DNA of 40,505 nt, taken from NCBI GenBank assembly GCA_016235085.1, contig JACRMA010000012.1, forward strand, positions 1 to 40,505. Direction: 5' to 3'. The notes below the pieces were generated by a model. That model was not told the origin of the DNA. It made no database searches and worked only from the letters and a program-made list of their open reading frames with translations. This DNA is from Candidatus Zixiibacteriota bacterium (GTDB lineage Bacteria > Zixibacteria > MSB-5A5 > WJJR01). Shown here one piece after another: positions 1,270-39,273 of the stretch. Position 1 is the first letter of the stretch. Each line of letters opens with the position of its first letter. Both the position numbers and the translations under genes were made by a program.

Positions 1270-2946
1270 ATGCGTTTCCTGAAATTGGTTTCATCAGCAG
1301 TATTGCTTGCCGTCGTACTGGGAGCGATGGCCGGGATTGCCGCGGCAGACCCGGAAACCTTCCACATCATCCAGGTCAGCGAAGTCTTCAGCAATGCAGA
1401 CGGGACAGTGCAGTTCATCGAATTGAAGGCGCTCTCCGCATTCCAGACACAGTTGCAGTATGCGCGGGTAAACGCGCGCAACGCGGACGGTACCGTCATC
1501 ACGCTCGTGAGAGATTTTACGGCCACATTTCCGGCACTCGACAACAACGAGACGATTCTCCTGGCAACCGCGGGGGCCGCTACGGCTCTGGGATTCGCCC
1601 CCGACTTCATCATTCCGAGCGGTTCAGTCCCGTTGCACAGCGGCCGGATCGAATTCGACGATGACTTCAATGGCGTCATCGACGGCGTCGCTTACGGTAA
1701 TTACACCGGTGATATGACCGGGTACGGAACGCCGGCGCCCGCGCTGCCATGCGACGGATATCAGTCACTCACCCGCCTGACGTTTTCGCTTTTTACGAAG
1801 AACAACGCGGCAGATTTCACGACAGCCGAGAACAGTCCCACGCGCAACGATGGGTCGACCGGCCTGCTTGGCGTGCCCAATCCCACCCCGCCTGTCTTGG
1901 CGGCCATTGCCACGCAGAATATGAATGAGGGCGCCGCGCTGAACCTATTGATCTCCGCCACGGACTGCAATGGGACATTCCCAGCGATGTCCGGCATCAA
2001 TCTGCCCGCGAATTCAAGTTTCACACCTCACGCCAATGGCACCGGGAATTTCGTATTCAATCCAGTTGCAGGACAGTTTGGGACTTTCGTTGTGGACTTC
2101 ATCGCATCCGACGGCACAACGGCCGATACGGCAGCTGTGACGATCAAAGTGAATGCGCTGCCCATCGCGCGAGACACATCGGTGACCACTCCCGAAGACA
2201 CACCGGTCGGAGCGCAACTTCAGGCGTACGATCCCGATGCTGGCACGCTGAGCTTTATAATCTTAACCGGTCCGTTCCACGGAGCCACCAGTGGCTTTAA
2301 TCCTAGCACCGGAACGTTCAACTACACGCCCAATCCCAATTACAGCGGACCCGATACAATCACATTCCGGGTTAATGATGGGACAGCCAATTCATCTCCC
2401 GGAACCGTTGGACTGACCGTGACCGCGGTCAATGACGCTCCGGTCGCAGTGGACGTCAGTGCCTCGACTTCGGTGAACCTGGCGCACACATTCGGCGCCA
2501 TGCCGGTGACGGATGTGGACAACGTATCCTGGACGATTACCCACGCCAGCGGGCCATTCCACGGAAGCGTCTCTTCCTTTGATGCCGCCACTGGCGCATT
2601 TGTCTATACACCGGCGCTGAACTATCAGGGATCGGATTCCATCCGCTACCACGCCAACGACGGATCGGCAAACTCGAACACCGCGACCATCCGCATCACA
2701 GTCGTGAGTGGCTGCGCTTGCCCGAGTCAAGGAGATATCAATAGCGATGCCGTGATTGATGTTTTCGACGTGATCGGCGTTATCGGTATCGCGTTCAGCG
2801 GTGATACGGATCCACAGGATGCGGGCTGTCCCAAGACGCGTGGTGATGTGAACAACGATGGCGCGACGGATGTATTCGATGTGATCTACTTGATTGCGAC
2901 GGCATTCAGCGGCGGACCGGATCCGGTCGATCCCTGCGCGGGGTAG
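1270..2946 (+). CDS. Secreted Ig-like repeat protein with C-terminal dockerin
   Basis: Extracellular modular protein of 558 residues. The ATG at 1270 is chosen over in-frame upstream ATGs (first at 1162) because AGGAGG lies 9 nt before it and a classic signal peptide follows (basic start, hydrophobic core, Ala-rich cleavage site near residue 25). Residues about 28-175 resemble a lamin-tail-like beta domain. Residues about 205-480 hold three cadherin/Ig-like repeats of the kind common in bacterial adhesins, with recurring Asn-Tyr-x-Gly-x-Asp-(Thr/Ser)-Ile segments. Residues 482-558 are a double dockerin: two Ca-binding loops ending Asp-Val-Phe-Asp, framed by cysteines. No enzyme signature is visible, so it is probably a structural or adhesive component. 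A terminator follows. Confidence 0.88.
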   Translation: MRFLKLVSSAVLLAVVLGAMAGIAAADPETFHIIQVSEVFSNADGTVQFIELKALSAFQTQLQYARVNARNADGTVITLVRDFTATFPALDNNETILLATAGAATALGFAPDFIIPSGSVPLHSGRIEFDDDFNGVIDGVAYGNYTGDMTGYGTPAPALPCDGYQSLTRLTFSLFTKNNAADFTTAENSPTRNDGSTGLLGVPNPTPPVLAAIATQNMNEGAALNLLISATDCNGTFPAMSGINLPANSSFTPHANGTGNFVFNPVAGQFGTFVVDFIASDGTTADTAAVTIKVNALPIARDTSVTTPEDTPVGAQLQAYDPDAGTLSFIILTGPFHGATSGFNPSTGTFNYTPNPNYSGPDTITFRVNDGTANSSPGTVGLTVTAVNDAPVAVDVSASTSVNLAHTFGAMPVTDVDNVSWTITHASGPFHGSVSSFDAATGAFVYTPALNYQGSDSIRYHANDGSANSNTATIRITVVSGCACPSQGDINSDAVIDVFDVIGVIGIAFSGDTDPQDAGCPKTRGDVNNDGATDVFDVIYLIATAFSGGPDPVDPCAG

Positions 2947-2974
2947 TTCACTTGCGAAATACGTTTGGACTGCG

Positions 2975-16100: not shown

Positions 16101-18515
16101 GACATCTGGGGTTACGCATCGGGGAATGTCGCGGTGAATTTTGAGAACAACTCAATCAGAAACTTCACTGAGGGCCTTTACCTCGTTGCCGAGGCCGGTA
16201 AGACAAACTCGACGACACTGCTAAACAATAACATCGCTCAAAACGGATTGGGCATCAGTAATGGCGTCGGCCTGACGTACGGCGGCGGTGCCAACGTCGG
16301 GGCAATCGTGTCGGCAACACAGAATTCGTTCGCAAATACGGCCAATGCAACAGACAACAGTTCGGGCAACGCGTCCAGCCAGGATTGCTGGAGTGACTGG
16401 TCTGGGGTCGGAACGTACTTCGTTGGTGGCAGCGGCGGCAACATCGACGCGAGCCCGAACGTCGACTGCGGGCTCGACATGACACCGAATGCCATTGTCT
16501 ACCACTGCAGCGGAGACTTCACATTCGACGTAGGGATCGGCGAGGCCGTCCTTGATCTGGAGGGCGCCCACATTATCATCGAATACCCGGCGTCATTCGT
16601 ACTGTCGGGCGTGACTTCGGCGTCGCCCAACTTCTCCGTCTTCACTTCGCTGGTCGACAACACCGTGGGCAACGATATTCTGACGGTGGATCTGGGCGTC
16701 CTGACCGGTGCGCTGAACGGTCCGGCCACACTGTTCACGGTTGCCCTGAATGGCAGCACCAGCCTCTGCAGCGGTTCTCAGATTTCGATGACGACTGCGT
16801 CGTTGCGTGACGGTAACAACAACCCGATCGTCGCGTCGCTGGCCTACCCGGTGTCGGTGGTCGCCGATTGCGGGGACCCGTCGATCACAGTCAATTCTCC
16901 CGCGCCGGGTGGTATCTACAACGTTGTCCCGGTGCTCGATATCAGCGCGGCGGATGATTGTGAATTGGATGCCGTCTACTACCAGTACGACGGATGTTCT
17001 CCAGGCGACTGGCAGGCAATCGCGACTGGACTGATCGGAACGACTTACAGCAACGCAACTTGGACAATACCGGGTTGGCCTGGTTTGTCGGATGGAGCGC
17101 ATTGCATCCGCTTCAAGGTGATCGACGACAACGGCCGCGGGAACGCCGATTCGTGCTCCTTCAACTGGTGCTTCACAAAGGATGTAACGCCGCCGCCGCC
17201 GCCGACCAATCTGACCGCGACGCCGGGGCACAACAAAGTCCACTTGAACTGGACGAATGCGGCCAGTGATTTCGATCACGTGGTTGTGATGCGTTCGGAT
17301 TGGTACGCCGGTGGGCATGGATATCCCGAGTACGACGACAACAATCCCGAAGGTCCGGATCCGTCGGATACCGCCTCGTTCGACCGCGTCTACGCGGGAG
17401 CAGCTGCAACGCTGATCGACGTCGATGATTTGTCCGACGCGACACGTGACGTCTATCATTATCGCGCCTTCACCGTTGACGCTGCCGGAAGCGTCTCCGC
17501 GCCTTCGAATTCAGCGCGGTCGACCTCGTACTGGCTGGGCGATGTCAAATCACCGTACGACGGTTCGGTGTATTCACAGGATCTCTTTGTCTTCGCGCCA
17601 ACCTATGGCAAGTCACATGGCCAGGCGGGATACAACGACGAAGTCGACTTCGGTCCGACATTCAACATGAGCCCCAAGGGCATCCCGACCACCGACAACG
17701 TCGTCAATTTCGAAGATCTGGTGATCTTTGCCATCAACTTCGACGCGGTCAGTCCACTGCTCAAGTTCGCACCGGTCTTCGCCAGCTCACCCGCGGATCA
17801 ATCATTGGCAACCGGACTGTCCGGCCTGTCTCTGGTGATCCCGAATGTGGCTCCGGTTGTCGGGGAAAGCTTCACCGTCAAGGTCCTGATGGCGAACAGC
17901 CAGAACAATGCCAAGGCCGTGCGGTTCACTCTCCCGTACGATGCGAAGCAACTGGAGTATGTCGGCTCGGCCATGAGCGCCGAATTGCGGCAGTCGCCGA
18001 TGCAGGTATTCTTTGACGCCCGCGAGACGGAACAGATGATCGATGTCAGCCTCGCCCTGCTCGGCGGTGAAACCGCGATGGGCGGGTCAGGCGAAATCGC
18101 TACGATGACTTTCAAACTCCTTGCGGCAGGAGGGACGTCATTGGACTTCAACGAAGTGGACTTCCGTGATGGCGGTAACAACCGGCTCGAGGTTACGCAC
18201 CGGGGCGCCCAGCTCGCATCGAATTCGGCGCTCCCGGCATCGTACGCCCTCGACCAGAATTACCCCAACCCGTTTAACGCGGGGACCCAGATCGTCTACC
18301 AGTTGCGTGAGCGCACGAATGTTTCGCTCGCGGTCTATAACATTTCCGGACAGTTGGTGACTAAACTGCTCGACGGCATTCAGGAACCCGGCAGGCATTC
18401 CATTACCTGGGATGGCCGTGGGACGGATGGAGATGAAGTGCCGTCCGGAGTATACTTCTATCGGATGATCGCGGGTGACTACACTGCGACCAAGAAGATG
18501 ATGATCGTGAAGTAA
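13158..18515 (+). CDS. Giant modular surface protein with cohesin-like modules and T9SS tail
   Basis: Secreted protein of 1785 residues. Signal peptide about 1-28; GGGAGG precedes the ATG. Modules in order: an alpha/alpha-toroid-like region (about 60-410, rich in Trp/Tyr and Asp); a long right-handed beta-helix (about 416-1108, many Asn-Asn-x-Ile turns, NosD/pectate-lyase type, in two similar halves); a cohesin-like module (about 1109-1235); an Ig-like domain; an FN3-like domain (about 1345-1455); a dockerin-like pair of loops (about 1459-1533); a second, clearer cohesin module (about 1550-1680); and a T9SS type A sorting domain (1692-1785, with Gln-Asn-Tyr-Pro-Asn-Pro-Phe, Gly-Val-Tyr-Phe-Tyr and a Lys-Lys-Met-Met end). 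The tail predicts export by T9SS and surface attachment. The helix and toroid suggest polysaccharide binding or cleavage, unproven. A long hairpin terminator follows. Confidence 0.88.
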   Translation: MRIFRVVFGTVAIVSIMASLGALIVQAEVAAPWNEQGNAVQVLSKVSSLRGPMAAGAASAMAPGDPVSISGALAAASGYLNRMQADVTEDNAGNGSGALESPNDLDDGGWDWVVTSPPAPFFHTTAASPKNIYGVTALGLYHGYLASSNPAYFTALTDAANKMVADAGIRSASDLIFLMRYNDLPGVAGTAYKDAAKAKFDARIALYGSADSLAKYIRNVRGASYPNGIIAWDIAAFVKAAAMLEARYPSDVYDYATAAADMAEVLWQDSFNDSPGFFDVVDDAGWDPTWSNVNYWWYTLGISGLIDAFTATGTHTSEVPGLVARILASQYTTGAISGSYGANAGDEDWQSTAYAAPSLAVVDQPLYQGKINHIAYWLGATQDPSGGWKYSDNTHYPEIIAECASALALGQAPSYVIVDDGFTSQADVDVYNTANGTDYVFGYDAFATIQGGVDGVSGSTVMVLPGTYILSSTVNLNKTNLTIDGAGAGSTIVQVAQSVGYAFNISASGVTLRDIELQKTDVTGLHNLIYIGASNASILNNLIYGPDPGTPWSVNGIVSRAMISTGGLTGLLIDNNTIHHLRQPGYFSGPTTGVISNNAVSGTRGWVNEGANLTFTNNNWPLPPNQGAEIALLATLGANGPIWYPDLMALSNANNNAYVDAQFTPTDKGRAISYVDDSAVPGGFGSALAPVQTMSAGVSGVLTTGTVNVAAGSYTDNLVVGKAMTLLGAGAGTCLVYPLLSAPMPGASGSLPAGASNMVLVQANNVSISGFTFDGNNTALTSGVLAGGVDVDARNGIITNHALGLYNNLTVDNCTIKNIYLRGLYASSGGTFNFHHNSVDNVQGEYASIGMFNFNGSGVFDHNTVSNCNDAIASNWSTGCTFTNNIVTNSGSGIHTDNAGNAAGSAADLIENNSISNSPVNGYGIFVFAPYVAPVINLNTITNVDFALTCAGSYASVTPQFTNNIADGMGKPNSAGVYVTTDIWGYASGNVAVNFENNSIRNFTEGLYLVAEAGKTNSTTLLNNNIAQNGLGISNGVGLTYGGGANVGAIVSATQNSFANTANATDNSSGNASSQDCWSDWSGVGTYFVGGSGGNIDASPNVDCGLDMTPNAIVYHCSGDFTFDVGIGEAVLDLEGAHIIIEYPASFVLSGVTSASPNFSVFTSLVDNTVGNDILTVDLGVLTGALNGPATLFTVALNGSTSLCSGSQISMTTASLRDGNNNPIVASLAYPVSVVADCGDPSITVNSPAPGGIYNVVPVLDISAADDCELDAVYYQYDGCSPGDWQAIATGLIGTTYSNATWTIPGWPGLSDGAHCIRFKVIDDNGRGNADSCSFNWCFTKDVTPPPPPTNLTATPGHNKVHLNWTNAASDFDHVVVMRSDWYAGGHGYPEYDDNNPEGPDPSDTASFDRVYAGAAATLIDVDDLSDATRDVYHYRAFTVDAAGSVSAPSNSARSTSYWLGDVKSPYDGSVYSQDLFVFAPTYGKSHGQAGYNDEVDFGPTFNMSPKGIPTTDNVVNFEDLVIFAINFDAVSPLLKFAPVFASSPADQSLATGLSGLSLVIPNVAPVVGESFTVKVLMANSQNNAKAVRFTLPYDAKQLEYVGSAMSAELRQSPMQVFFDARETEQMIDVSLALLGGETAMGGSGEIATMTFKLLAAGGTSLDFNEVDFRDGGNNRLEVTHRGAQLASNSALPASYALDQNYPNPFNAGTQIVYQLRERTNVSLAVYNISGQLVTKLLDGIQEPGRHSITWDGRGTDGDEVPSGVYFYRMIAGDYTATKKMMIVK

Positions 18516-18615: not shown

Positions 18616-19350
18616 ATGAGAGTGCGCCGTAACCCGTATCTTGGTATCCTTCTTGCAATCATCACATGTTGGGTGATCCCATCCGGCAGCACGGTGGCAG
18701 GCCAGGTCTCCTTCAGCCCACCCAGCCAATCCGCCACACCGTACGACACATTCGACGTCAATATCGTCGTCGACACCGGCGTGCGCGCCCTGGGATGTTT
18801 CAATGTCCAGGTCAGTTTCCTGCGTCCTGACGTCACCGTACTTGGAGTGACCGAGGGACCGTTGCTGAAGAACACGGGAAGCTCCTTCGGGTGGACCGCC
18901 AAGGATACGCTGGGTGTGTGGGACATCTTCGATTGCGTTCTCCCGCCCAAGTACGCGAACGGCCCGGGTGTCCTGGCGACAATGCGATTTGCCACGGGTG
19001 CGTCTCCATGCAGCACCCCACTGCAATTCGTCTATGTCTATTTTCAGGACACAATCGGGCAGCCGGTCACGGTCGGCTCGGCCGATGGCATGATTGTCGT
19101 CCCCGGCTGCTGCAGTTGTCCGTCCCAGGGCGATATCAACAACGATGGCAGCATCGACGTCTTCGACGTGATCAGCGTCATCGATGTGGCCTTCAGCGGC
19201 GGTCAGGATATTCAGGATCCGGGATGCCCGATTGCACGCAGCGATGTCAATAACGACCAGGTGGTCGACGTGTTCGACGTAATCTACATCATTGGAACGG
19301 CATTTAGCGGCGGTTCCCTGCCCATCGACCCGTGCAACTCTGGCGGATGA
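18616..19350 (+). CDS. Small secreted cohesin-plus-dockerin protein
   Basis: Exported protein of 244 residues. Signal peptide about 1-31 (basic start, Ile/Leu-rich core). Residues about 33-160 fit a cohesin-like beta sandwich: an early Phe-Asp-Val-Asn-Ile-Val-Val strand, a Phe-Asn-Val-Gln-Val-Ser-Phe strand, and Gly-Val-Leu-Ala-Thr-Met-Arg-Phe near the end, the order typical of cohesins. Residues about 163-244 form a double dockerin with loops Asp-Ile-Asn-Asn-Asp-Gly-Ser-Ile-Asp and Asp-Val-Asn-Asn-Asp-Gln-Val-Val-Asp, framed by cysteines. The protein is essentially one cohesin joined to one dockerin, so it could act as an adaptor or chain-forming unit. AGGGAAG lies about 10 nt before the ATG. 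The next gene starts 27 nt downstream, forming a two-gene unit bounded by terminators. Confidence 0.85.
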   Translation: MRVRRNPYLGILLAIITCWVIPSGSTVAGQVSFSPPSQSATPYDTFDVNIVVDTGVRALGCFNVQVSFLRPDVTVLGVTEGPLLKNTGSSFGWTAKDTLGVWDIFDCVLPPKYANGPGVLATMRFATGASPCSTPLQFVYVYFQDTIGQPVTVGSADGMIVVPGCCSCPSQGDINNDGSIDVFDVISVIDVAFSGGQDIQDPGCPIARSDVNNDQVVDVFDVIYIIGTAFSGGSLPIDPCNSGG

Positions 19351-19377: not shown

Positions 19378-20124
19378 ATGTCCCATCACACAACAAGAAT
19401 CGGTTCTGTGGCGCTTGCCACACTCCTCGCCGTCGGCCTGCTCCTGCCGGGGTCAGCCATGGCGCAGCGGGTTTTCGTCGATCCGCCATCGTTCGCACAA
19501 CACTGCAACGTCACGGATACGCTCTGGATCATGCTGGACGCTTCGCTGGTCGGAGTCGAGGGAGCGAGTCTCAATGTGCAATTCGACCAGACCGTGGGGC
19601 GGCTCGACACGATTCTTGCCGCACCGGCGCTGGATACCAACGTGTTTCTCCGGTACCAGAACTACTACCCGGATTCCGTCACCATCGACGCGGGGATCCT
19701 GATTGGCGCACTTAGCGGTCCGGGTGCCCTTTGCGGACTGGTGATCACCCTCACCGATCACCTGGGCGCCAGCCCGGTCACGCTGGTCCGTTCGATTCTC
19801 CGGGACGCCGATAATCAGGACATTGCCCATCTGGCCGATCCCGGCGTACTCGATAATCCCTGTTGCTGTGCACATCACGGTGACGTGGCAGGCGACGACG
19901 TCTTCGATGTAAACGATGTCGTGACTCTGATCGACTACACGTTTAGCAATGGTACCGCGCCGCTGATTGACGCAGGCTGTCCTCATATGCATCGGGGGGA
20001 CGTCAATTGTGATGCCATTCCTGATGTCTTTGACATTCTTCGGCTGATCGACTTTGTCTTCAGTGGGGGGCCTCCCCTCTGTCAGCCTTGCGACTGCTCT
20101 CCCTACCCGACGCATTGCTTGTAA
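19378..20124 (+). CDS. Small secreted cohesin-like plus type-B dockerin protein
   Basis: Exported protein of 248 residues. Signal peptide about 1-31, ending Ala-Met-Ala-Gln. Residues about 33-158 form a cohesin-like domain with a Leu-Asn-Val-Gln-Phe-Asp strand and a late Arg-Asp-Ala-Asp-Asn segment. Residues about 160-248 are a double dockerin of a second type: the helices read Leu-Ile-Asp-Tyr-Thr-Phe and Leu-Ile-Asp-Phe-Val-Phe, and the end adds Cys-x-Pro-Cys-x-Cys-Ser-Pro-Tyr-Pro. The first loop is degenerate (Ala-Gly-Asp-Asp in place of Asn-x-Asp). GGAGG lies 7 nt before the ATG. It has the same layout as its upstream neighbour but a different dockerin subtype, so the pair could link two binding specificities. 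A strong terminator follows. Confidence 0.85.
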   Translation: MSHHTTRIGSVALATLLAVGLLLPGSAMAQRVFVDPPSFAQHCNVTDTLWIMLDASLVGVEGASLNVQFDQTVGRLDTILAAPALDTNVFLRYQNYYPDSVTIDAGILIGALSGPGALCGLVITLTDHLGASPVTLVRSILRDADNQDIAHLADPGVLDNPCCCAHHGDVAGDDVFDVNDVVTLIDYTFSNGTAPLIDAGCPHMHRGDVNCDAIPDVFDILRLIDFVFSGGPPLCQPCDCSPYPTHCL

Positions 20125-20174: not shown

Positions 20175-20255
20175 CCGTTGGGCGCGCCCACTGACGACAC
20201 GTCTTCGGCGTGCTGCCCGGCATGGCACCCGAATCCCCTCTTCGAAAGTTGAACA

Positions 20256-20284
20256 TTGCGTTCATCTTACCGTTGGCGTATAAT
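20256..20284 (+). promoter_or_regulatory. Sigma70-like promoter of the Ser/Thr kinase gene
   Basis: TTGCGT and TATAAT are separated by exactly 17 nt. The predicted transcription start lies near 20291, about 27 nt before the GTG start at 20318. This placement rules out the longer in-frame starts upstream (20210 and 20222). Confidence 0.6.
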
Positions 20285-20317
20285 GCCATGCACGGAGATT
20301 CAGCGGGCGGAGACGAC

Positions 20318-23136: not shown

Positions 23137-25791
23137 ATGACCATCACCAATGAGTTTCGCACGCCAGGGTCACGCGCACATCGAGGAGTCCGGGGCACAC
23201 TGCCGGTTTGGCTCGCTTGTCTGACTTTAGCCGTCCTCGCGAGTACAGCCGTTGCACGAGCGAGTCAAGGCCCGGCGCCAAGCGATGGTGTCAGAGGAGT
23301 GCGGATGTCCATTGCTCCCGCAGCTCAAATGACATGGGACGAATTGGTCGCAATTGATAAAGCCAAGGCGGCCTTACCGGGGGCCCCTTCTCAGGCGATT
23401 CCGTTTATGGAAGAGCCCGCCGACCGTGACATTGGCTTCACCATGGGTTTATCACCGCAACCGGATCATGTGGCGACTCCGGCGTACAGCCCGAGGGTAT
23501 TGCTCCCGCCACTGAAGAACAGCTTCCAGGCCTTGCCTGACAACAACCGGGTGATTCCGCCCGATACGCATGGCGCGGTCAGCAAGAGCTATACCATGAC
23601 CATGCTGAACAGCCAGGTGCGGATTCAGAATCGTTTCGGCGCAACGATCAGCACAGTGAGTCTGGCAGCCTTCTGGGTTACGGTTGGCTCCACTGGCCTG
23701 ACCGATCCTCGCATCATGTATGATCCGGCAACGAATCGCTGGCTGGCCACTGTCCTTGCCGACGTGCGAACCGCGACTGCATCGTTCCTCTTCGCCATCA
23801 GCGCGAACAGCAATCCCACCGGAAGCTGGACATTCTACCGCGTCGACGTGGATCCAACCGACGTCAACTGGGCCGACTATGACGATCTGGGATTCAACGA
23901 CACCTGGATTGCCGTTACGGCCAACATGTACACGGTCGCGGCGTCGCTGTTTTCGGGTACCGCGATGTGGGTGATTAATAAGTCCACCGCACTCGCGGGA
24001 GGCTCGCTGACGTTGACATCATTCCCCGTTGGGTCCGATTCATTTGGCGGTTTCGACGGCTTCACTTTGAGAGTCTGCCAGACGTTCGGGCCCGAACCGA
24101 CGCTTTATATCGTCGATAACCCGGGCTGGAGTTCTGCTGGCGTCAACCTCTTGCGCTTGACCCAGATCACCGGCACCGCTGCAGCACCCATTTGGTCGGC
24201 AACGCCCGGCTCAGATTGGGCCGGCTCGGGTCTATTCGCTGTGAACAATTCATTTTCGCCGCAGATCAATGCGCCGCAATTGGGCACCGCGACGCTGATC
24301 TCAACCAACGACCGTCGCATGCTCAACGCCGTCTTCCGCAATGGACACGTCTGGTGTACGCACAGCGGAGGCTTGCCGGTCGGAGCCGTGGATCGCACGG
24401 CGGCGTTCTGGTACCAACTGGACCCAACGGCGCTACCGGCGCCCATCGTTCAATCAGGTGTGCTTGACGGCGGAAGCGGTGTGCACCATTTCTTTCCCAG
24501 TATCTCCGTGAACATCAATGACGATGCCTTCATCGGATTCACGCGCTCCGACGCAACACGATACGCCGAGGCGGTCTACACCGGTCGGTTGGGAACTGAC
24601 CCACTGGGCACCATGGATCCGATCTCCCTTCTGAAAGCCGGCGAGGCCAGTTATGTGAAGGATTTTGGGAGCGGACGCGTGCGCTGGGGTGATTACAGCG
24701 CCACGCTCGTCGATCCCATTGACGACGTCTCCTTCTGGACGATTCAGGAATACGCCGCCATGGACGTCGGCCCCACCGCGAACGATGACCGATGGGGAAC
24801 CTGGTGGGGACGCGTCTCGTCGGGGCCGGCGAACAATCCACCAACGGCGATTTGCAGGAATGTAACAGTCAATGCCAGTTTCAGTTGCCTGGCAGCAGTG
24901 TTTGCGGCCGCGGTCAACAATGGATCGTCGGATCCGGAGGACGGCACGAATGTGACGCTGGCTCTGTTGCCGCCGGGACCGTTTCCGCTCGGCGTGACCG
25001 CTGTCGACCTTGTTGTCACTGATACGCAGGGTGGATCGGATACCTGTTCCGCGTTGATCACGGTGGAGGATCACACAGCGCCGGTCATTACCTGCCCGGC
25101 GCCGATGACCGTGAACAACACGGTGGGACAATGCGGTGCGACAGTGAATTTCACTCCAACCGCCACAGACAATTGTCCCGGTGCATCGATCGTTTCGACG
25201 CCGCCATCGGGAACAGTCTTTCCGATCGGTGTGACGCCAGTCATGTCCATCGCCAGCGATGCATCGGGGAACATGGACACGTGCCAGTTCACGGTGACCG
25301 TACGCGACACCGAGCGTCCCGTGGTGCTCTGCCATGCGGACACGATTGTTGACGCACCGCCCGGCCAATCCGACGCGATTGTCATATTCGGCAGTTCGGC
25401 GACCGATAACTGCCCGGGGGCGGTCGTCGTCTGCACTCCTCCGTCCGGTTCGGCGTTTCCGGGAGGCGTCACTCACGTCATCTGTATCGCGACCGATGCG
25501 GCAGGTAACAAGGACACCTGCGGGTTCAATATCACTGTGAATCTGTGTGTCTGCCTGCACCAGGGTGACATCGCAGTGCGGCCTACCGGCGACGGCATGA
25601 TTGACGTGTTTGACATAATTGAGGAAATCGGAATTGCATTCAGCGGCGCGACTGATCCGCAAGACCCGCAGTGCCCAAGGACCCGTGGTGATGTCGACAA
25701 CAACGGCATAAGCGACGTTTTCGATGTCCTATACCTGATCGCGACTGCGTTCGGCGGCGGACCGAATCCGGTCGACCCATGCACACCGTAG
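23137..25791 (+). CDS. Secreted propeller-like protein with HYR domains and dockerin
   Basis: Extracellular protein of 884 residues. A long N-terminal region precedes the signal peptide core (about 22-43), with cleavage near Ala-Arg-Ala-Ser; GAAGGA precedes the ATG. Residues about 125-560 look like a beta-propeller, with Pro-Pro-Asp-Thr-His-Gly, Asp-Pro-Arg-Ile-Met-Tyr-Asp and repeated Trp-containing strands. Residues about 570-800 hold one HYR-like and two clear HYR domains with Ala-Thr-Asp-Asn-Cys-Pro-Gly, typically adhesive Ig-like modules. Residues about 804-884 are a double dockerin; its first loop has a three- to four-residue insertion (Arg-Pro-Thr-Gly-Asp-Gly) and the linker keeps the usual Cys-Pro-Arg-Thr-Arg-Gly-Asp. 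No catalytic residues could be assigned. A promoter lies at 22883-22911 and a terminator follows. Confidence 0.87.
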   Translation: MTITNEFRTPGSRAHRGVRGTLPVWLACLTLAVLASTAVARASQGPAPSDGVRGVRMSIAPAAQMTWDELVAIDKAKAALPGAPSQAIPFMEEPADRDIGFTMGLSPQPDHVATPAYSPRVLLPPLKNSFQALPDNNRVIPPDTHGAVSKSYTMTMLNSQVRIQNRFGATISTVSLAAFWVTVGSTGLTDPRIMYDPATNRWLATVLADVRTATASFLFAISANSNPTGSWTFYRVDVDPTDVNWADYDDLGFNDTWIAVTANMYTVAASLFSGTAMWVINKSTALAGGSLTLTSFPVGSDSFGGFDGFTLRVCQTFGPEPTLYIVDNPGWSSAGVNLLRLTQITGTAAAPIWSATPGSDWAGSGLFAVNNSFSPQINAPQLGTATLISTNDRRMLNAVFRNGHVWCTHSGGLPVGAVDRTAAFWYQLDPTALPAPIVQSGVLDGGSGVHHFFPSISVNINDDAFIGFTRSDATRYAEAVYTGRLGTDPLGTMDPISLLKAGEASYVKDFGSGRVRWGDYSATLVDPIDDVSFWTIQEYAAMDVGPTANDDRWGTWWGRVSSGPANNPPTAICRNVTVNASFSCLAAVFAAAVNNGSSDPEDGTNVTLALLPPGPFPLGVTAVDLVVTDTQGGSDTCSALITVEDHTAPVITCPAPMTVNNTVGQCGATVNFTPTATDNCPGASIVSTPPSGTVFPIGVTPVMSIASDASGNMDTCQFTVTVRDTERPVVLCHADTIVDAPPGQSDAIVIFGSSATDNCPGAVVVCTPPSGSAFPGGVTHVICIATDAAGNKDTCGFNITVNLCVCLHQGDIAVRPTGDGMIDVFDIIEEIGIAFSGATDPQDPQCPRTRGDVDNNGISDVFDVLYLIATAFGGGPNPVDPCTP

Positions 25792-28900: not shown

Positions 28901-29681
28901 CGCACAATTGGTGAAGAGCGGATTCGAAATCATCCCGGCTTCGGGAGGATACACCAAATTAGATTGGCATTCGGTAATGGCATTCGCCAAGAATGTGTCC
29001 TTGAGTTCGACGACAGCCAAGCGATTCGCGCTGGGTTTTGTGACGTCGACGGCAGGTCCAGACACTACCGACCTGATGGCGACGACGCGGAAAGCCTGGC
29101 GATTTGCCTTCGGCTGGCAGGACGTAGTGACTCTCGACACCATCTCGCTCGGCATAGCGAGATCGTATCCCTACTGGGCATCGGGCTCCCATGAAAACGG
29201 GCCAACGAGCGGCTGCTGTGGTTGCGTGGTGAGTAAAGTTTCCGGGAGTCCGCTGTTGACGATCGCTCCCGACCCGGGTAACTGCACGGGCACGATTACT
29301 TTTGCCGGATCGCCGAGTCCGGGAAGTTTCACGGCGACATTCCGGGTTGCGACCCCAACCTGCACCGGTCCCTTGTACACTGAGGATCACGTGGTCACGA
29401 TTCTGGCGGGTTTCTTCCCGTGCAACTGTCCCGACCAGGGCCGTTTGAATGCGGACAGTGTCATCGACGTTTTGGATATCATAGCGTTAATCGACTATGT
29501 CTTCTCCGGCGCAGCCCAACCGGTGACTGACCCGATCTGCCCGACCGATCGCGGCGAGATCAACTGCGACGGGGCCGATGATGTCCTGGACGTGGTGGAC
29601 CTGATCGACTATGTCTTTGCCGAAGGACAAGCGCCCTGCAACCCCTGCGCCTGCAGTCCGTACCCGTCGAATTGCCCGTGA
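25992..29681 (+). CDS. Large secreted Asp-box (sialidase-fold-like) protein with type-B dockerin
   Basis: Extracellular protein of 1229 residues. Short signal peptide (about 1-21) ending Val-Trp-Ala-Ala; GGAGG precedes the ATG at good spacing. Residues about 60-570 appear to be a propeller: an Asp-box (Ser-Thr-Asp-Gly-Gly-Ile-His-Trp, about 480-487) and nearby Trp-Ser-Pro-Ala-Gln-Asn-Leu are typical of BNR/sialidase-like folds. The catalytic Arg triad and Tyr/Glu pair of true sialidases could not be assigned. Residues about 575-690 are an Ig-like strand domain. About 700-1060 is a beta-rich region of unknown family. Residues about 1143-1229 are a type-B double dockerin with two Leu-Ile-Asp-Tyr-Val-Phe helices and a Cys-x-Pro-Cys-x-Cys-Ser-Pro-Tyr-Pro end; the first loop starts Arg-Leu-Asn instead of Asp-x-Asn. 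The substrate is unknown. Confidence 0.87.
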   Translation: MRTRLISTAVAILATVMVWAAESPERMVARHLADEAQQPSRGGKSWATLPIADGPQDRLDNWIAAQPANRSIIRDDYTVGAGLNAVTAAPGLQLAWTTYDFQHNDAVPHQIGTILSPAVGDTSHLVHFVWTHWDIIPESLNRIDRFVNFQSYNSATGHFIHGTNGLTISGAGGDPLQGRAGFITMDVDDNDRTRAVAHVRDAPEQPSGDYCSYYYEQSASAFSVFTEGVLNGSKGVLGNFTDDVIWPHVTVDRQPGTDYFYVVSHTYSANSNLVFWRCTAPMIWQGPYVIDSTPSLSYNIAADPTSDKIALVTENATPSPSNPHGILQIVYRPSPARGDDWGAVNTTGLGDSKRVFVTSYNDAAGPGAWLDVVGDYDNAGKLHIVWNEQRVQNSSEQGSWKHWDDVANTITTIHQAYWNNTGAVGGRDINIKFPSIGFGDGSTTCGSGTNLNYVYLTFCQFGGETSAEQHDQSAHGYMNGEVYLSGSTDGGIHWSPAQNLTNSRRPGCDPARGDSCPSENWPSLARTVNDTLHLMYINDRDAGDAVFGQGNWTFNPVMYYRIPGGTNAQLLCPTIAPNAAVDLSDANGADCEYNTPPNTSLSESLTISNPGNAAMTGQVSIQYLNPPSGAWLLTATGGYTIPPGGMDDVRPVVMSAAGLSEGLYRAQISVTHNDPTKTSPVVLPVDFFVFHNFACPEYVTLHTNWLELEVSSVDRVAMGPLRYSGTGIGLNVAPIPGSSHQSMAANVPVGGGIWGARGLYRAPRFGSPDSGNNTIYDASLIIARTPTPSAPPPGDTTVYRYLFGQGNYARGFRALSGLTVDSSNYGTGAGMVTARAQQATIDSLIGIDVEYQFPQSADSSNFVIITYKIFKRAAGTISGLIIGEAADFDIIPSAENAKYQIGTQNKAAYSSAMNLVYQTGADSGATTLAQKYMGGMTAIQCTPAPRAWLAPNDQWLFKNRGGGFYEGYLYAQLVKSGFEIIPASGGYTKLDWHSVMAFAKNVSLSSTTAKRFALGFVTSTAGPDTTDLMATTRKAWRFAFGWQDVVTLDTISLGIARSYPYWASGSHENGPTSGCCGCVVSKVSGSPLLTIAPDPGNCTGTITFAGSPSPGSFTATFRVATPTCTGPLYTEDHVVTILAGFFPCNCPDQGRLNADSVIDVLDIIALIDYVFSGAAQPVTDPICPTDRGEINCDGADDVLDVVDLIDYVFAEGQAPCNPCACSPYPSNCP

Positions 29682-30043: not shown

Positions 30044-33000
30044 ATGATGGCAAAGCGACTGATTCTTGTGCTGGCGATCGTGCTTGCGGGGTTGTTCTCG
30101 TTCCCGAGAACCAGCGTCGCCGCACCAGAAGGGACAGCGTCGGCAACGGGAGGGCCGCAACCGGATGACCAGGCTCAGTTCCAAACTGCTGCCTCGACGC
30201 TCCCCACCTATTATGTGTACCACGGGCGGCCGGAGAATCTGACGCTTGATCCTGTCCGGCTCGCAATCCAATACGGCGCACCATCATCCACAAGCGAGCG
30301 TTCGGCGGCGATTAACGCGGCCGGAATCGACGTCATGTCCGAGGAAGCGACCGGGATCACCGGGTGGTCACTCCTCAATCTCGCGACGGAAATCTCTGGT
30401 CCGGCCGATGCCGATTCGCGCATCAAATCGCTGCTCGCCACCACGGCGGCGACATTCGTCTCGCCTGTCTTCCGCACTCAGGCGGGGGGTTGGGTGACGA
30501 TGACTCCGACAATCCTTCTGCGTTTCAAGAACGGATACGAGTCCAACGGAGACGCCCTGCTCGCGACGATTGCTCCTGAACTGGCCGCCACAGACCGGGA
30601 ATTCGGCAAGATGCCGGGGGCCTACAAACTGCGCAGCAGTTCTCGCAATGGGTTCGACGTTTTGGCCATCGCCAATCGGCTCGCCTCTGATCCGCGGGTT
30701 GCGTGGGCGGAACCGGATGCCATCTTTACCGGGCATGGTGATCTGATCCCCAACGATCCCGGGTTCTCCAGTCTCTGGGGGATTCGCAACACGGGGCAAT
30801 CGGGCGGCGCTCCCGGCATGGATATGGCCGGCGACAGAGCGTGGGACATTACCACCGGGGATCCTAATGTCAAGGTGCTGATCATCGACACCGGCGTGCA
30901 GCAGGACCATCCGGACATCAATCAACTCCCGGGTGCGGACTTCACCGGCGAAGGCGGCGGAGGCGGGCCGGTCAATGCCTGCGACAATCACGGCACTGCC
31001 GTAGCGGGGTGCGTGTCAGCCATCATCAATAATGCGACCGGCACGGTTGGCATCGCCCCATCGTGCCGCGTCCTGTCCGCCCGCCCGTTTACCTCAACTC
31101 TGGATTGCTCCGGCAGTTGGTCAAGTACCGCGAGTTGGACGGTTGATGCCCTGACGTGGGGAGAATCCCAGGGAGCGCGCGTCAGCAACAACAGCAACTA
31201 CTATGGCTTCACATCGAGCGCCATCGAGGACAAGTATGCTTCGACCTATGCCGGCGGCATGGTTCATTTTGCCAGTGCCGGGAATGACGCCAGTCCTTCT
31301 ATTTCGTATCCATCGTCTGCCCCATTTGTGAACTCGGTCGCAGCATTAAATCAGCAGGGTTCGCGCTCTTCGTTCAGCAACTACGGTGTCGGATTGGACT
31401 TTTCCGCACCGGGCTCGACGATCTACTCGACCGATCGCACGGGAACCCAGGGATATGTGAGTGGGGACTACACCTTTGTCAACGGTACGTCTTTCGCCTC
31501 ACCCTATTCGGCCGGCGTGGCGGCACTCATCATCTCCAACAATCCCGCGCTGACCTCCGCCCAGGTCGAAGCCAAGATGCAGACTTCCAGCCGTGATTTG
31601 GGCGCAGCCGGGTACGACACCGACTTCGGCTGGGGATTCGTGAATGCGTACGATGCCATTGTCCCATACACCACGCTCTCGGTGTTGTCGTACAATCCCA
31701 CCTCGGGCATCGCGGTCACCATCAGCCCGGCGGATACCAATGGGTTGGGCGATGGCGTCACGCCGTTCGACCGGCAGTATTCACCCGGAAGGGATGTGAC
31801 GCTGACCGCGCCGGGCATCGGCGCGGGAGACACGTTCGTCAGATGGTTGAAAGACGGTGTCTACTTTCCCGGGGGTACCACGATTACGGTCGACTTGAGC
31901 ACGTCGCATGCGTTGATGGCGGTCTATCTCGCTTGCACCCAATCCGTGAGCAAGCCAGTTATCACACCCGAAGGCCCGGTGTGCATGATCCCCTACACTG
32001 TCGCCTGGCTGCCGCTGGCGGGGGCTTCGGGGTATGAGATCCAGGAGAATGGCGGAGCGTGGGTTTCGACCGGCACCGACACCTCGAAGTCATTCACTCC
32101 CTCGGTGGCGGGAGACTACGTGTATTCCGTTCGTCCGGTGTCAAGCTGCGGCGCCGGGGCGGCCAGCGCGACGGCGACCATCTCGGTTGATGGCGCCATT
32201 CCGCCAGTGGTCTCGCAACCACGGATTGATGGTCCCAGTCCGGTGTGCATAAACTCCCAATTCGCCGTGAGTTGGGATGCGGTCACGGGTGCCCGCAGCT
32301 ATGAAATTCGCGAGAATGGCGGAAGCTGGACCAGCGTCGGGGCGGTGCCGGTGCAATTCTATTTCAAGACGGTCCCGGGCCTCTACACGTATGAAGTCCG
32401 TTCCGAGAACAGCTGCGGGGCGAGCGCACTCAGTTTGCCGGTCTCAATCACGGTAACCGCTGATGGATCCGCCGCTCCCGCTCCGCCCACGCAGCCTGTC
32501 GTGCAGCCGGCCAATCCAGTGTGCACGGGCACACCGCTGACCATTCGGTGGAACAACGTGCCCGCAGCGGACTACTATCAAATTCGTGAGAACGGCGGTA
32601 TCTGGCAGAACTGCGGAAGCATACCAGTGTGGGGCATGAGTCCCGCGGGACCCGGCACGTTCATTTATGAGATTCGCGCGGTCAATAGTTGTGGTGCGAG
32701 CAATCCAAGCCCGGCGACGACGGTCCTCATCGGACCCTGCTACAATGTCGCCGTATTTTCCCTGCACCCGGACAACGACGTAGCGATAACCCTAAGCCCG
32801 CCGGACCAAAATGGCAAAACAGGAGGCACGACCCCGGACGCTTATCTGTACGGCAGTGGCCAGATCGTGTCCATCGAAGTTCCGGCGGTGGTTAACGGTT
32901 GGAACTTCCTCAAGTGGCAGCGTGACGGAGTGGACTACTCAACCAATCCGGCGATTTCCCTGACGATCGACGCCGACAGAGTGATGACCGCGATGTACCA

Positions 33001-34051
33001 CATCCCCATGCTCACCATTGCCTCAGCCAATCCCGGGAGCGGCGTGGCCATCGTGGTCACGCCACAGGACATCAACGGTCAGGCCGATGGCACGACTCCA
33101 TTCACCCGCGAATATGTTCAGGGAACGAACGTCACGCTGCAGGCACCGGCCAACTTCAACGGCAATCCGTTTGAGAAGTGGCAGCGCGATGGCGCGGATT
33201 ATCCCGGTGGACAGTCGATCGCTTTCGCACTGGATACCAATCATTCGATGACCGCCATGTATCATAGCGTGACGGGCGTTGAGATCGAGAGTAAGAGCGC
33301 GCTGTCAGGCTCGGTGCCGATCCATATTAAACTCTCCAATGAAGTTCCGGTGCGAAAGATCCTGCTCCCCCTGGAAATCCGTGAAGTCACGCCGGGAGCG
33401 GCCATCACGAGAATCCGGGTCAGCTATGCGGAACGGCTGACGGGGTATCTGACGGGAATCAGCTCCGCGCTGCAGTTTGGCACTCCCGATGGAAACTGCA
33501 AGAGTGGATTGTCGGGTGGATACAAGACAGCCACCGCGATCATGACGCCCGATGTCGACGTGAACGTCGGGGACCTCCCCGAGGGAATCTCCATCGTCCG
33601 CGGCCGTCTGACGGACCCCGCCCTCCCCGCAGGCGCTGACGCCTCTGGGTCGATCATTCTGACGGTGTTCGTGAATGGACCGCAGGGGTCGTTCGAGATC
33701 GACACGACCTGCACCAATCCCGCTAATCATCTGATCTTTACCCAGGAAGATCCGCCGACTTACACGAACATCCTCCCGGTCTTTACGAAAGGTACAATTA
33801 CCATCACCGGCGACGGCTGCGGATGCCCATCGCAGGGGGATCTTATCGCCAACGGTGATATCGATGTGTTTGATATCATCGCCGTGATCGGGGTCGCATT
33901 CAGCGGTGACCTGGATCCACAGGATGCGAACTGCCCCAAGACTCGCGGTGACGTCAACAACGACGGCGTCACCGACGTCTTCGACGTGATCTACCTGATT
34001 GCAACGGCGTTCAGCGGTGGGCCCAATCCGCTTGATCCGTGCAATCCCTAG
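30044..34051 (+). CDS. Secreted subtilisin-like serine protease with cohesin-like module and dockerin
   Basis: Exported S8 peptidase of 1335 or 1336 residues. Tandem ATGs at 30044/30047 follow GGAGGAGG; the upstream in-frame start (29963) lacks a ribosome binding site. Signal peptide about 1-25. A prodomain-like region ends near residue 230 (Arg-Val-Ala-Trp-Ala-Glu-Pro-Asp). The catalytic domain has Asp282 (Ile-Asp-Thr-Gly-Val), His316 (Asn-His-Gly-Thr-Ala) and Ser483 (Asn-Gly-Thr-Ser-Phe-Ala-Ser-Pro), so it should be active. Next come an InlB-type B-repeat, three FN3/Ig-like repeats with Tyr-Glu-Ile-(Gln/Arg)-Glu-Asn-Gly-Gly, and two more B-repeats. A cohesin-like module (about 1083-1255) also occurs in the 36817-39273 protein. 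A type-A double dockerin ends the protein. It could process or be docked with other exoproteins (inferred). A UUCG terminator follows. Confidence 0.92.
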   Translation: MMAKRLILVLAIVLAGLFSFPRTSVAAPEGTASATGGPQPDDQAQFQTAASTLPTYYVYHGRPENLTLDPVRLAIQYGAPSSTSERSAAINAAGIDVMSEEATGITGWSLLNLATEISGPADADSRIKSLLATTAATFVSPVFRTQAGGWVTMTPTILLRFKNGYESNGDALLATIAPELAATDREFGKMPGAYKLRSSSRNGFDVLAIANRLASDPRVAWAEPDAIFTGHGDLIPNDPGFSSLWGIRNTGQSGGAPGMDMAGDRAWDITTGDPNVKVLIIDTGVQQDHPDINQLPGADFTGEGGGGGPVNACDNHGTAVAGCVSAIINNATGTVGIAPSCRVLSARPFTSTLDCSGSWSSTASWTVDALTWGESQGARVSNNSNYYGFTSSAIEDKYASTYAGGMVHFASAGNDASPSISYPSSAPFVNSVAALNQQGSRSSFSNYGVGLDFSAPGSTIYSTDRTGTQGYVSGDYTFVNGTSFASPYSAGVAALIISNNPALTSAQVEAKMQTSSRDLGAAGYDTDFGWGFVNAYDAIVPYTTLSVLSYNPTSGIAVTISPADTNGLGDGVTPFDRQYSPGRDVTLTAPGIGAGDTFVRWLKDGVYFPGGTTITVDLSTSHALMAVYLACTQSVSKPVITPEGPVCMIPYTVAWLPLAGASGYEIQENGGAWVSTGTDTSKSFTPSVAGDYVYSVRPVSSCGAGAASATATISVDGAIPPVVSQPRIDGPSPVCINSQFAVSWDAVTGARSYEIRENGGSWTSVGAVPVQFYFKTVPGLYTYEVRSENSCGASALSLPVSITVTADGSAAPAPPTQPVVQPANPVCTGTPLTIRWNNVPAADYYQIRENGGIWQNCGSIPVWGMSPAGPGTFIYEIRAVNSCGASNPSPATTVLIGPCYNVAVFSLHPDNDVAITLSPPDQNGKTGGTTPDAYLYGSGQIVSIEVPAVVNGWNFLKWQRDGVDYSTNPAISLTIDADRVMTAMYHIPMLTIASANPGSGVAIVVTPQDINGQADGTTPFTREYVQGTNVTLQAPANFNGNPFEKWQRDGADYPGGQSIAFALDTNHSMTAMYHSVTGVEIESKSALSGSVPIHIKLSNEVPVRKILLPLEIREVTPGAAITRIRVSYAERLTGYLTGISSALQFGTPDGNCKSGLSGGYKTATAIMTPDVDVNVGDLPEGISIVRGRLTDPALPAGADASGSIILTVFVNGPQGSFEIDTTCTNPANHLIFTQEDPPTYTNILPVFTKGTITITGDGCGCPSQGDLIANGDIDVFDIIAVIGVAFSGDLDPQDANCPKTRGDVNNDGVTDVFDVIYLIATAFSGGPNPLDPCNP

Positions 34052-35604: not shown

Positions 35605-35693
35605 GCCGATTTGTCGCCTCATGCTCCGACGGTACTTCCCCGCGCCAATCGGGCCACTCAAATATACAATCGGAGCTCGGCAGCGGAACGATG

Positions 35694-36816: not shown

Positions 36817-39273
36817 ATGAAGCCAATGAACAAGTCTTTGACTGGACTGGCCTGTCTTGCCATGCTGGCATTAGCTCTCATTTGCTGGACTGATGAGTGC
36901 TACTGCGCCCCCCAGTGCTCCTGTCCCAATCAAGGAGATGTCGAAGACGACTTTAATGTCGACGTCTTCGACGTCATCGCGACAATCGGTATCGTATACC
37001 AGGGAAGAGAACCCGGCATCACTGACCCTGACTGTTCAACGGCGCGTTCAGACGCCAACGCGGATGGAGTCACTGATGCCGTCGACATAGTGTATATTCG
37101 GGATATCGCATTCTCCGGCGGCACGTCCGTGGATCCTTGTCTTGGTCTCGTATCTCCCGCCCCGACACTGGGGGGGACGCTGTGGTCCGTGACGGTCGAA
37201 TCCAAACAAGTTCTCCCAGGTTCCACTAACCAGACGATCGCGATCAGACTGACCAACGACGCACCGGTCCGGCAACTGGTTGTGCCGCTGGTGATCCGCT
37301 CAGTAACAGCCGGAACCTCCATTTCATCTCTCAAACTTGGTGTCTCAGAGAGGCTGACTGGAAGTGCCCCTCAGATCAGTGTGCTGAATCAATACGCCAG
37401 TGGTGAGGGCTCGTGCAAGTCTGGCAATGCAGGAGGGTATTCGACCATCGCGTTTAACGATGGGGAGAGCCACCCTGTGACAGCATCCCCGATGGCGGTC
37501 CTGTTTGCGCAGGGTTGGCTGTTCGGGGGAGGTTTCGCGGCTGGCTCGGACGTATCGGGTTCGCTCGTTATGACTGTCGACGTCAACAGCACGCCTGGAA
37601 TCATTGAGATCGACACGACGTGCACCAATCCTGGCAACCACCTCCTGTTCGTCCCTTTATCCACTTATACGCCCGTACTCCCGACATTTGCGAAGGGGCT
37701 GATCAGCGTTTTCGGTCCCAACGATCATGCCGCGACGATTAACCACTCGGCACCCAGTGGGAATCCGCCACGGGTAGTGTCCTTCGACGGCGTGACGCCC
37801 GAACCGGCCGACAGTTGGGAATGGCTGTTCGGCGACGGCACGACCGGCTCTGGGAAGAATACGTATCACGGGTACCCCGGCACAGGGAGCTACAGCGCCG
37901 CGGCAATGGCCACAGTCGGCGACCAGAAATACTATGCGATGGCTCAGATCATTGTGAATGGGATAGTCGCCGGATTTTCCGCCTCAACGGACCGAGCCGG
38001 GGAGAGCCCGCTGACAGTTCAGTTTACCGATCTATCGAGCGGCGGACCGACCGCATGGTCCTGGGACTTCGGTGACGGTACACCCACATCGACAGAGCAA
38101 AACCCCGCCCACACATACACAACCAATGGCTGGTTCAATGTGCGGCTCACGGCATCCAAGTTCGCCGATTCCTCGATGAGAGAGAAACTCAACTATGTCC
38201 ACACGTCGCCCCCAATCACCGATCTGGCCGTACAAATCTATAGCGACTGGGCATCTCGGCCCGGCTTTGACAAGCACTATTATGTTAACCTCTTCAACCT
38301 TGGCACGACGGATGTGAGCGGGATCACTCTCCACCTCAGATTCCCAGGATGGGAGCAATTCATCTCGAGCGATCCCGTCGGCACCGTCCTGGACAGTGTC
38401 ATCACCTGGACTGTGCCACTGATGCAGGCAAGCCCGTCACCGCTGACCTTTTCTATCCTCATCCACATCCCTGTGGGAATTCCCCACGGCACGTCGCTAA
38501 TTGCAACCGCGTCAGTCGATGCTGTTCCCAATGAGATCGTGCTGACGAACAACTTTGACGATGGACACGACATCGTGGTCAGTTCGGTTGATCCGAATGA
38601 CATGCTGGTGCAACCACCGGGATGTGGTCCGAATGGGAATGTCACCAATGGATCCGAGCCCCTGACATACAACATCCAATTTGAGAACAAGTCGACAGCT
38701 ACCGCCGAAGCGATTTACGTTTGGGTTGTTGACACTTTGGATGCAGACTTGGATTGGAATACGTTGCAGCTAGGCCCCAGCATCAACGACAATGTGCTGA
38801 GTGTGAATTTCAATTCCTCCACCGGTGAGCTGATATGGTTCTTCGATGGGATCAACTTGCCGCCCAATGTCACACCGCCTCAAGGGGAAGGATTCGTTGC
38901 TTATACGGTTACGCCGAAACCAGGGCTCCCGGACGGAACGGTCATCTCAAGCCGGGCCCACATCCGTTTCGACTACAATGAATGGATTGCCGCACCGGGC
39001 TCGGGACCATTGACGCAACTCAAGTTCACGACGTGTCCCTGCAATTGCCCAATGCAGGGCGACCTCAACAGCGACGCACTGATTGATGTATTCGATGTCA
39101 TCGGCGTTATCGGCATTGCATTCACTGGTGACGCCGACCCGCAAGACAGCGATTGCCCCAAGACGCGCGGCGATGCCAACAACGACGGAGTCTCCGACGT
39201 CTTCGATGTGATTTATCTGATCGCCACGGCCTTCAGCGGCGGACCGAATCCCGTCGATCCTTGCGCGCCGTAG
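36817..39273 (+). CDS. Secreted protein with dockerins at both ends, cohesin-like and PKD modules
   Basis: Extracellular protein of 818 residues. Signal peptide about 1-31; AAGGAGG precedes the ATG. The N-terminal double dockerin (about 33-108) starts immediately after cleavage. A cohesin-like module (about 125-305) shares Pro-Val-Arg-x-Leu-x-x-Pro-Leu-x-Ile-Arg, Cys-Lys-Ser-Gly and Glu-Ile-Asp-Thr-Thr-Cys-Thr-Asn-Pro with the protease at 30044-34051. Two PKD domains follow (about 308-470; Trp-Ser-Trp-Asp-Phe-Gly-Asp-Gly-Thr in the second). A beta domain (about 472-590) and a repeat domain beginning Asp-Pro-Asn-Asp with Phe-Glu-Asn-Lys-Ser-Thr-Ala (about 592-735) come next, the latter typical of secreted FCB-group proteins. 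A type-A double dockerin (about 738-818) ends the protein. No enzyme motif is visible; it could bridge two cohesins. Confidence 0.88.
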   Translation: MKPMNKSLTGLACLAMLALALICWTDECYCAPQCSCPNQGDVEDDFNVDVFDVIATIGIVYQGREPGITDPDCSTARSDANADGVTDAVDIVYIRDIAFSGGTSVDPCLGLVSPAPTLGGTLWSVTVESKQVLPGSTNQTIAIRLTNDAPVRQLVVPLVIRSVTAGTSISSLKLGVSERLTGSAPQISVLNQYASGEGSCKSGNAGGYSTIAFNDGESHPVTASPMAVLFAQGWLFGGGFAAGSDVSGSLVMTVDVNSTPGIIEIDTTCTNPGNHLLFVPLSTYTPVLPTFAKGLISVFGPNDHAATINHSAPSGNPPRVVSFDGVTPEPADSWEWLFGDGTTGSGKNTYHGYPGTGSYSAAAMATVGDQKYYAMAQIIVNGIVAGFSASTDRAGESPLTVQFTDLSSGGPTAWSWDFGDGTPTSTEQNPAHTYTTNGWFNVRLTASKFADSSMREKLNYVHTSPPITDLAVQIYSDWASRPGFDKHYYVNLFNLGTTDVSGITLHLRFPGWEQFISSDPVGTVLDSVITWTVPLMQASPSPLTFSILIHIPVGIPHGTSLIATASVDAVPNEIVLTNNFDDGHDIVVSSVDPNDMLVQPPGCGPNGNVTNGSEPLTYNIQFENKSTATAEAIYVWVVDTLDADLDWNTLQLGPSINDNVLSVNFNSSTGELIWFFDGINLPPNVTPPQGEGFVAYTVTPKPGLPDGTVISSRAHIRFDYNEWIAAPGSGPLTQLKFTTCPCNCPMQGDLNSDALIDVFDVIGVIGIAFTGDADPQDSDCPKTRGDANNDGVSDVFDVIYLIATAFSGGPNPVDPCAP

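Follow-up and report, generated by a model that had tools for sequence, protein, structure and literature searches.

A putative non-cellulosomal cohesin-dockerin system in an uncultured member of the Zixibacteria

Seven proteins with double-dockerin modules and five proteins with cohesin-like modules are encoded on one contig of Candidatus Zixiibacteriota bacterium (JACRMA010000012.1, assembly GCA_016235085.1). The window analysed here is this entire contig of 40,505 bp. It belongs to a metagenome-assembled genome of 3.32 Mb in 142 contigs that is 93% complete. The eight double-dockerin modules lie in P0001, P0008, P0009, P0011, P0012, P0013 and P0014, the last of which has two, and the cohesin-like modules lie in P0007, P0008, P0009, P0013 and P0014. 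The genes, in window coordinates, are the following.

P0001, 1270..2946 (+): secreted protein with cadherin/Big_9 repeats and a C-terminal double dockerin (2713-2943).
P0007, 13158..18515 (+): candidate surface-anchoring cohesin protein of 1785 residues, with a cohesin-like module (~16473-16862), a degenerate dockerin (~17553-17744), a Pfam cohesin (17832-18194) and a Type 9 Secretion System (T9SS) type A sorting tail (18261-18506).
P0008, 18616..19350 (+): 244 residues, with a signal-like N-terminal segment, a cohesin (~18700-19101), a 3-residue gap and a double dockerin (19111-19341).
P0009, 19378..20124 (+): 248 residues, with a signal-like N-terminal segment, a cohesin (~19465-19854), a 2-residue gap and a double dockerin (19861-20097).
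P0011, 23137..25791 (+): HYR repeats and a C-terminal double dockerin (25546-25788).
P0012, 25992..29681 (+): large secreted protein with a C-terminal double dockerin (29421-29654).
P0013, 29963..34051 (+): subtilisin S8 domain (~30866-31636), VES cohesin (33257-33811) and double dockerin (33818-34048).
P0014, 36817..39273 (+): N-terminal double dockerin (36916-37143), VES cohesin (37174-37713), PKD, DUF11 and DUF7619 domains and a C-terminal double dockerin (39040-39270).

An initial annotation had counted eight double-dockerin modules in seven proteins, and this count stands. The modules align with 16 invariant columns, the profile built from them recovers them at 1e-32 to 1e-40, and all seven PDB sequence matches of the profile are dockerins, these matches being weak (best E 0.012). 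The Pfam search that had been proposed as a check gave a split outcome: cohesin PF00963 detected P0007, whereas Dockerin_1 (PF00404) scored the window modules at 12-18 bits, under its cut-off of 22.9, a score reached at about 15 places genome-wide. The eight-module profile finds 89 places genome-wide at E <= 0.1, and the loop pattern (D-x-N/D-x-D/N ... D spacing) is matched by 118 repeats. AlphaFold2 (AF2) models contain two helices per modelled dockerin, with the halves mostly at a predicted local distance difference test (pLDDT) score of 84-96.

The window is a real local cluster of these modules, yet it holds only ~9% of the genome-wide set. Eight modules lie in 40.5 kb where 1.1 would be expected, which is ~7 times the genome mean (Poisson P ~2e-5, a value that ignores how the window was chosen). 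The clustering implied by the name "island" therefore holds, but the idea of a dedicated, separate locus was dropped, since the modules are spread over dozens of contigs.

The main form of the dockerin reads CxCPxQGD(I/L)NxDxxIDVFDVIxxIxxAFSGxxDPQDxxCPxTRGDVNNDGxxDVFDVIYLIxTAFSGGPxPxDPC. Among 39 strong modules, 34 have the CxC start, 38 the middle cysteine and 38 the C-terminal cysteine. The ends of canonical dockerins are held by a ring-stacking "clasp" (PMC4728124), the place of which may be taken by a disulfide in this cysteine-rich form. Positions 10/11 are the established cohesin-recognition residues of dockerins (PMC8063739). Val-Phe occupies them here in 29 of 41 first and 32 of 41 second repeats, and the two repeats of a module are identical at these positions in 28 of the 41. 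Because these positions are uniform and the same in both repeats, one main recognition code is suggested; it would fit a single shared partner type and a symmetric binding surface, possibly with dual-mode binding.

We defined clear dockerin open reading frames (ORFs) as those scoring at least 25 bits to the profile (n = 74). In 71 of them, no more than 15 residues separate the end of the last module from the stop codon, and a signal-peptide-like N-terminus is present in ~49 of 67 complete dockerin ORFs by a crude pattern. So uniform a module at the extreme C-terminus could mainly be a sorting or anchoring tag for outer-membrane machinery that does not bind cohesins, with the cohesin-like modules being ordinary Ig-like adhesion domains. 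It fits such a tag that no protein terminates in both a clear dockerin and a T9SS tail, and that NCBIfam names a domain after "GC-type dockerin domain-anchored" proteins, with a weak match to P0007 (dockerin_GC, 0.064). We consider a mere tag unlikely. Dockerins are also N-terminal or internal (P0014, L088, L095, L107, L110 and the 330-residue ORF of L089) and in relatives form alternating strings; both repeats conserve the recognition positions, and cohesin folds are present in the genome.

The five proteins said to carry cohesin-like modules were corroborated by different routes: P0007 by PF00963, P0009 by homology, and P0008, P0013 and P0014 through fold and family. P0007 matches PF00963 at 1.5e-9 (39.4 bits) and the sorting-tail model TIGR04183 at 1.1e-12; its Pfam cohesin has only two PDB sequence matches, cohesin chains with marginal values of 0.03-0.04. 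PF00963 passes its cut-off at three places in the genome, P0007 included. The P0008 module is marginal in that search (0.028, 15 bits), and the P0009 and P0013 modules have no match in it. The P0009 module is homologous to the first, N-terminal cohesin-like module of P0007. From the window, the P0008 and P0013 (VES) modules were modelled with AF2 and compared by Foldseek with 350,542 PDB chains. All 19 matches of the P0008 model at E <= 1e-3 are cohesins (e.g., 5nrk, 2.5e-6), and so are the ten best matches of the P0013 VES model (e.g., 6kgf, 3.6e-5). The cohesin fold, on which the earlier proposal had been staked beforehand, was thus recovered for both models. The case for this fold in the P0008 and VES modules is strong but not certain, because confidence in the models is moderate.

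VES is a module of ~180 residues found in P0013 and P0014. It has no Pfam match and no PDB sequence match. This genome has 18 matches to it and the congener 24; the remaining family members have 8-19 each, and the sister family has fewer. In the rest of the class, matches are limited to marginal ones in G016 and G023 and two strong ones in G112. Judged by its model, VES is a divergent cohesin family that is rare outside its order. That it might be an unrelated Ig-like domain is weakened by the fold search, which ranks cohesins first. Current Pfam misses VES, and cohesin counts in such lineages are therefore probably underestimates. In G112, which represents another family of the class, two adjacent genes (L245 1623-2903 and 3039-4124) encode a VES-VES protein and a dockerin-like protein, both ending in an IPTLNEWGM...-type transmembrane tail and basic residues (IPTL-CTERM/PEP-CTERM-like, by eye). 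These tails differ from those of the T9SS, so cohesin and dockerin modules occur with another sorting signal as well.

The majority of the window modules fall under Pfam cut-offs, and one could hold that their likeness to cohesins and dockerins is superficial, a matter of EF-hand repeats and generic beta sandwiches from which nothing assembles. This is highly improbable in view of the genome-wide recurrence of the modules, their C-terminal position, uniform recognition residues and conserved synteny. The top PDB matches of each list are, moreover, restricted to dockerins and cohesins.

The genome contains 32 cohesin-bearing ORFs, of which 8 have a T9SS tail, 18 a terminal dockerin and 6 neither (two of these are truncated). 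The T9SS-tailed set comprises P0007, L071 (351 residues), L111 (910 and 1011 residues), L120 (1845 and 3612 residues), L122 and L131. Genome-wide there are 49 T9SS type A tails (TIGR04183) and a SprA_N match of 3.4e-36; these tails and the SprA-like gene support the initial guess of a host of the Fibrobacteres-Chlorobi-Bacteroidetes type. By the combination of a tail and a translocon gene, P0007 and seven other cohesin ORFs are predicted T9SS cargo, and the dockerin-tailed proteins are not. One of the six with neither ending (L113 9097-9948, 283 residues) has a lipobox-like LAGC start, by eye, and a PF00963 cohesin at ~1e-4, and is without a dockerin. This lipoprotein-like ORF is a possible second way of anchoring cohesins.

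The cohesin and the dockerin are separated by only 0-3 residues in 11 of the 18 dockerin-tailed cohesin ORFs. Such tight spacing, together with the failure of Pfam and PDB sequence searches to detect VES, would suit a more limited scheme in which receptors are confined to the few Pfam-level cohesins on T9SS-tailed or lipoprotein-like proteins. VES and the remaining linkerless modules would then serve to stabilise the dockerin beside them or to display it, in the manner of X modules next to type II dockerins, or would bind it in cis. We find this scheme doubtful. The fold search for VES puts cohesins first and not X modules, VES occurs on T9SS-tailed proteins without a detected dockerin (L071, 351 residues; L131, 536 residues), and in L070, L075, L096 and L099 it lies far from the dockerin. 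Three proteins (P0014, L088 and L095) have the order dockerin–VES–...–dockerin. With two dockerins and one cohesin, P0014 is a possible cross-linker.

Cargo was scanned with Pfam in the window proteins and in 63 dockerin ORFs outside the window. The subtilisin of P0013 (PF00082, 2.7e-40, with the D, H and S motifs visible), the HYR repeats of P0011 (1.8e-27) and the PKD domain of P0014 were all found by Pfam as initially annotated. An Asp-box propeller had also been assigned to P0012; it found no support in Pfam or NCBIfam, and P0012 has no recognised domain besides its dockerin. Peptidases among the 63 ORFs include S8 in 6, M36 in 3, M28 in 2, and M14, C10, M64 and M1 in one each, to which P0013 adds a further subtilisin. 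Other domains in these ORFs are FG-GAP, HYR, cadherin-like, Laminin_G_3, TSP_3, BNR and PKD. The full Pfam list of the 63 ORFs, like that of the window proteins, contains neither glycoside hydrolase nor carbohydrate-binding module (CBM) families. A cellulosome proper is rejected on this cargo, and the earlier view that the cargo is not cellulolytic is borne out. A putative non-cellulosomal cohesin-dockerin assembly is well supported by these sequences.

Three side observations concern the cargo. Two small dockerin proteins, L068 (237 residues) and L079 (211 residues), share a segment just N-terminal of the dockerin (YxLNWxSVNGGGxxxxSSxxYxMGxSxGQxVAGxAxSAxYxMGxGFWYGxGG), another repeated cargo domain for which no name was found. 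One outside dockerin ORF has a weak match to PF12256 (TcdB middle/N region, 8.5e-6), probably via FG-GAP-like repeats. A dockerin-tailed protein of 323 residues (L067) also has a copper-binding domain, and a double plastocyanin-like copper protein with a lipobox-like N-terminus (P0016) is encoded in the window at 62-754 (-). Together these two suggest that redox proteins can be cargo.

Much of the locus is conserved in a genome of the same genus (G001). The order P0016-P0001-P0004-P0005-P0006-P0007-P0008-P0009-P0011 is kept there, and a second contig carries P0011-P0013-P0017-P0015. The run P0007-P0008-P0009 is 90-92% identical (92% for P0007), and P0001 has a syntenic ortholog with 88% identity. 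P0012 and P0014 are missing at the corresponding positions in G001, so that the core is conserved while cargo genes come and go. In genomes of the same family, dockerin and VES modules alternate in strings; a 981-residue protein of G004 reads Doc-VES-Doc-VES-Doc-VES-Doc, and such strings are present in G003 too.

We propose, with a probability of roughly two in three, that the window is part of a genome-wide, non-cellulosomal cohesin-dockerin coat, probably proteolytic or adhesive in nature, that is anchored via T9SS-sorted cohesins. About 75 exported proteins (peptidases, FG-GAP/BNR propellers, and HYR, cadherin and PKD adhesion proteins) would be tagged by a C-terminal double dockerin that acts as a Ca2+-binding plug. 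The dockerin-tailed peptidases and adhesins would leave the cytoplasm via Sec, get outside by a further route and plug into cohesins. The sockets would be cohesins of several types, some of them on proteins such as P0007 that are carried by the T9SS and anchored at the outer surface. Other cohesins would sit on dockerin-ended adaptors, small or large (P0008, P0009, P0013 and P0014), and extend the network; as adaptors hold both a cohesin and a terminal dockerin, components could be chained. The resulting coat would retain adhesins and proteases close to the cell, where they would bind and break down protein. We infer the binding between cohesins and dockerins, its Ca2+ dependence, the surface location and the role in protein digestion from modules, folds, positions, cargo and sorting tails that are directly observed.

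Several points weigh against this coat. No large scaffoldin with many tandem cohesins was found in this genome, where cohesin-like modules number at most three per protein (L111, 908 residues). The proposal does not explain by what path dockerin proteins that are exported by Sec and have no T9SS tail would pass the outer membrane. VES often adjoins the dockerin directly, which makes a structural rather than a receptor role conceivable. The fold models are moderate, with a mean pLDDT of 72-75 from shallow alignments, and their TM-scores to cohesins are ~0.5-0.6. In a set of 38 related genomes, the number of dockerins rises with that of Pfam cohesins (rho 0.44, p 0.005; 0.44 also when the own family is left out) and with that of VES modules (rho 0.62), which speaks for the coat, but these correlations ignore phylogeny. 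Eight relatives have Pfam cohesins without a match to the dockerin profile, and G013 shows the reverse.

The near-linkerless proteins allow a more speculative and rather unlikely arrangement. Protomers such as P0008, P0009 and ~9 others, together with the alternating strings, might assemble head to tail, with T9SS-anchored cohesins as nuclei, to form a filament or a lattice at the surface, with disulfide-clasped dockerins suiting oxic surroundings. If true, cohesin-dockerin contacts would themselves build a self-assembling extracellular polymer, in place of a scaffoldin-templated complex.

Ordinary genes are interspersed among those above: a PAS histidine kinase, a metallophosphatase, an HDOD protein, a LysR/NhaR-type regulator (read by eye) and a Ser/Thr protein kinase with tetratricopeptide repeats. 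The Ser/Thr kinase (20210-22822) lies between P0009 and P0011, a place at which the congener is without it; the congener likewise lacks P0002 and P0003. One more gene is cut by the contig end.

P0015, 39566..40504 (+): FG-GAP repeats; truncated at the contig end.

P0015 is probably another dockerin protein, because its syntenic reading frame in G001 ends in a double dockerin. This counterpart (L237 8869-10308) has FG-GAP repeats and a double dockerin and is interrupted by one in-frame stop.

With the coat proposed here, the cohesin-dockerin principle would reach an uncultured diderm lineage and a secretome that is large, peptidase-rich and non-cellulosomal, with T9SS-tailed cohesins as a visible anchoring route. 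Protein engineering would gain new plug-and-socket parts in the Val-Phe recognition pair and the cysteine-rich dockerins, and the binding question is directly testable with P0008 and P0009, which are small single-gene proteins. A search of the PubMed Central literature for dockerin and Zixibacteria returned no paper.

Related systems have been described in other lineages. The cellulosome-like complex of Ca. Stygibacter (Cloacimonadota) has dockerins at the C-terminus of signal-peptide-bearing enzymes that include S8 and C25 peptidases as well as GH18 and GH57; its one large scaffoldin has tandem cohesins, CBM2/CBM3 and a conserved C-terminal surface-attachment domain, and the paper cites a T9SS review (PMC8542988). 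C-terminal dockerins on peptidases and a cohesin protein with a putative surface-attachment region are common to both. The present system differs in its scanned cargo without glycoside hydrolases or CBMs, in having ~75 dockerin proteins, in distributing its cohesins over many proteins, and in its new cohesin family and cysteine-rich dockerins. The planctosome of freshwater Planctomycetes (Nemodlikiaceae) is a hypothesised peptide-degrading complex with peptidase cargo (M12B, M14), an adaptor that combines dockerin, HYR and cohesin, and a lamin-tail protein as anchor (PMC6461901). Dockerin-bearing peptidases and adaptors with both modules recur here; anchoring, however, would be through a T9SS tail, and there are differences in scale and in the types of cohesin. 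Clostridial and ruminococcal cellulosomes share the double Ca2+-loop dockerins, the cohesin fold, the 10/11 recognition code, cohesins on anchored proteins and two-module adaptors. Unlike them, the present system has scanned cargo without cellulases or CBMs, no long tandem-cohesin scaffoldin that we found, probable T9SS-type anchoring instead of surface-layer homology (SLH) domains or sortase, Val-Phe instead of the clostridial recognition residues, and cysteine pairs at the module ends. Anaerobic methanotrophic (ANME) archaea have many dockerin and cohesin proteins outside cellulose degradation, some scaffoldin-like with one dockerin and several cohesins (PMC9012536); in contrast to the proteins described here, these stand in a context of archaeal surface layers and ATP-binding cassette (ABC) binding proteins and are neither peptidase-rich nor T9SS-based. 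Given Ca. Stygibacter, the planctosome and ANME archaea, the non-cellulosomal cohesin-dockerin principle is already known. What is new here is the VES family, the cysteine-rich Val-Phe dockerins, the linkerless cohesin–dockerin proteins, the alternating strings in relatives and a cargo without glycoside hydrolases or CBMs.

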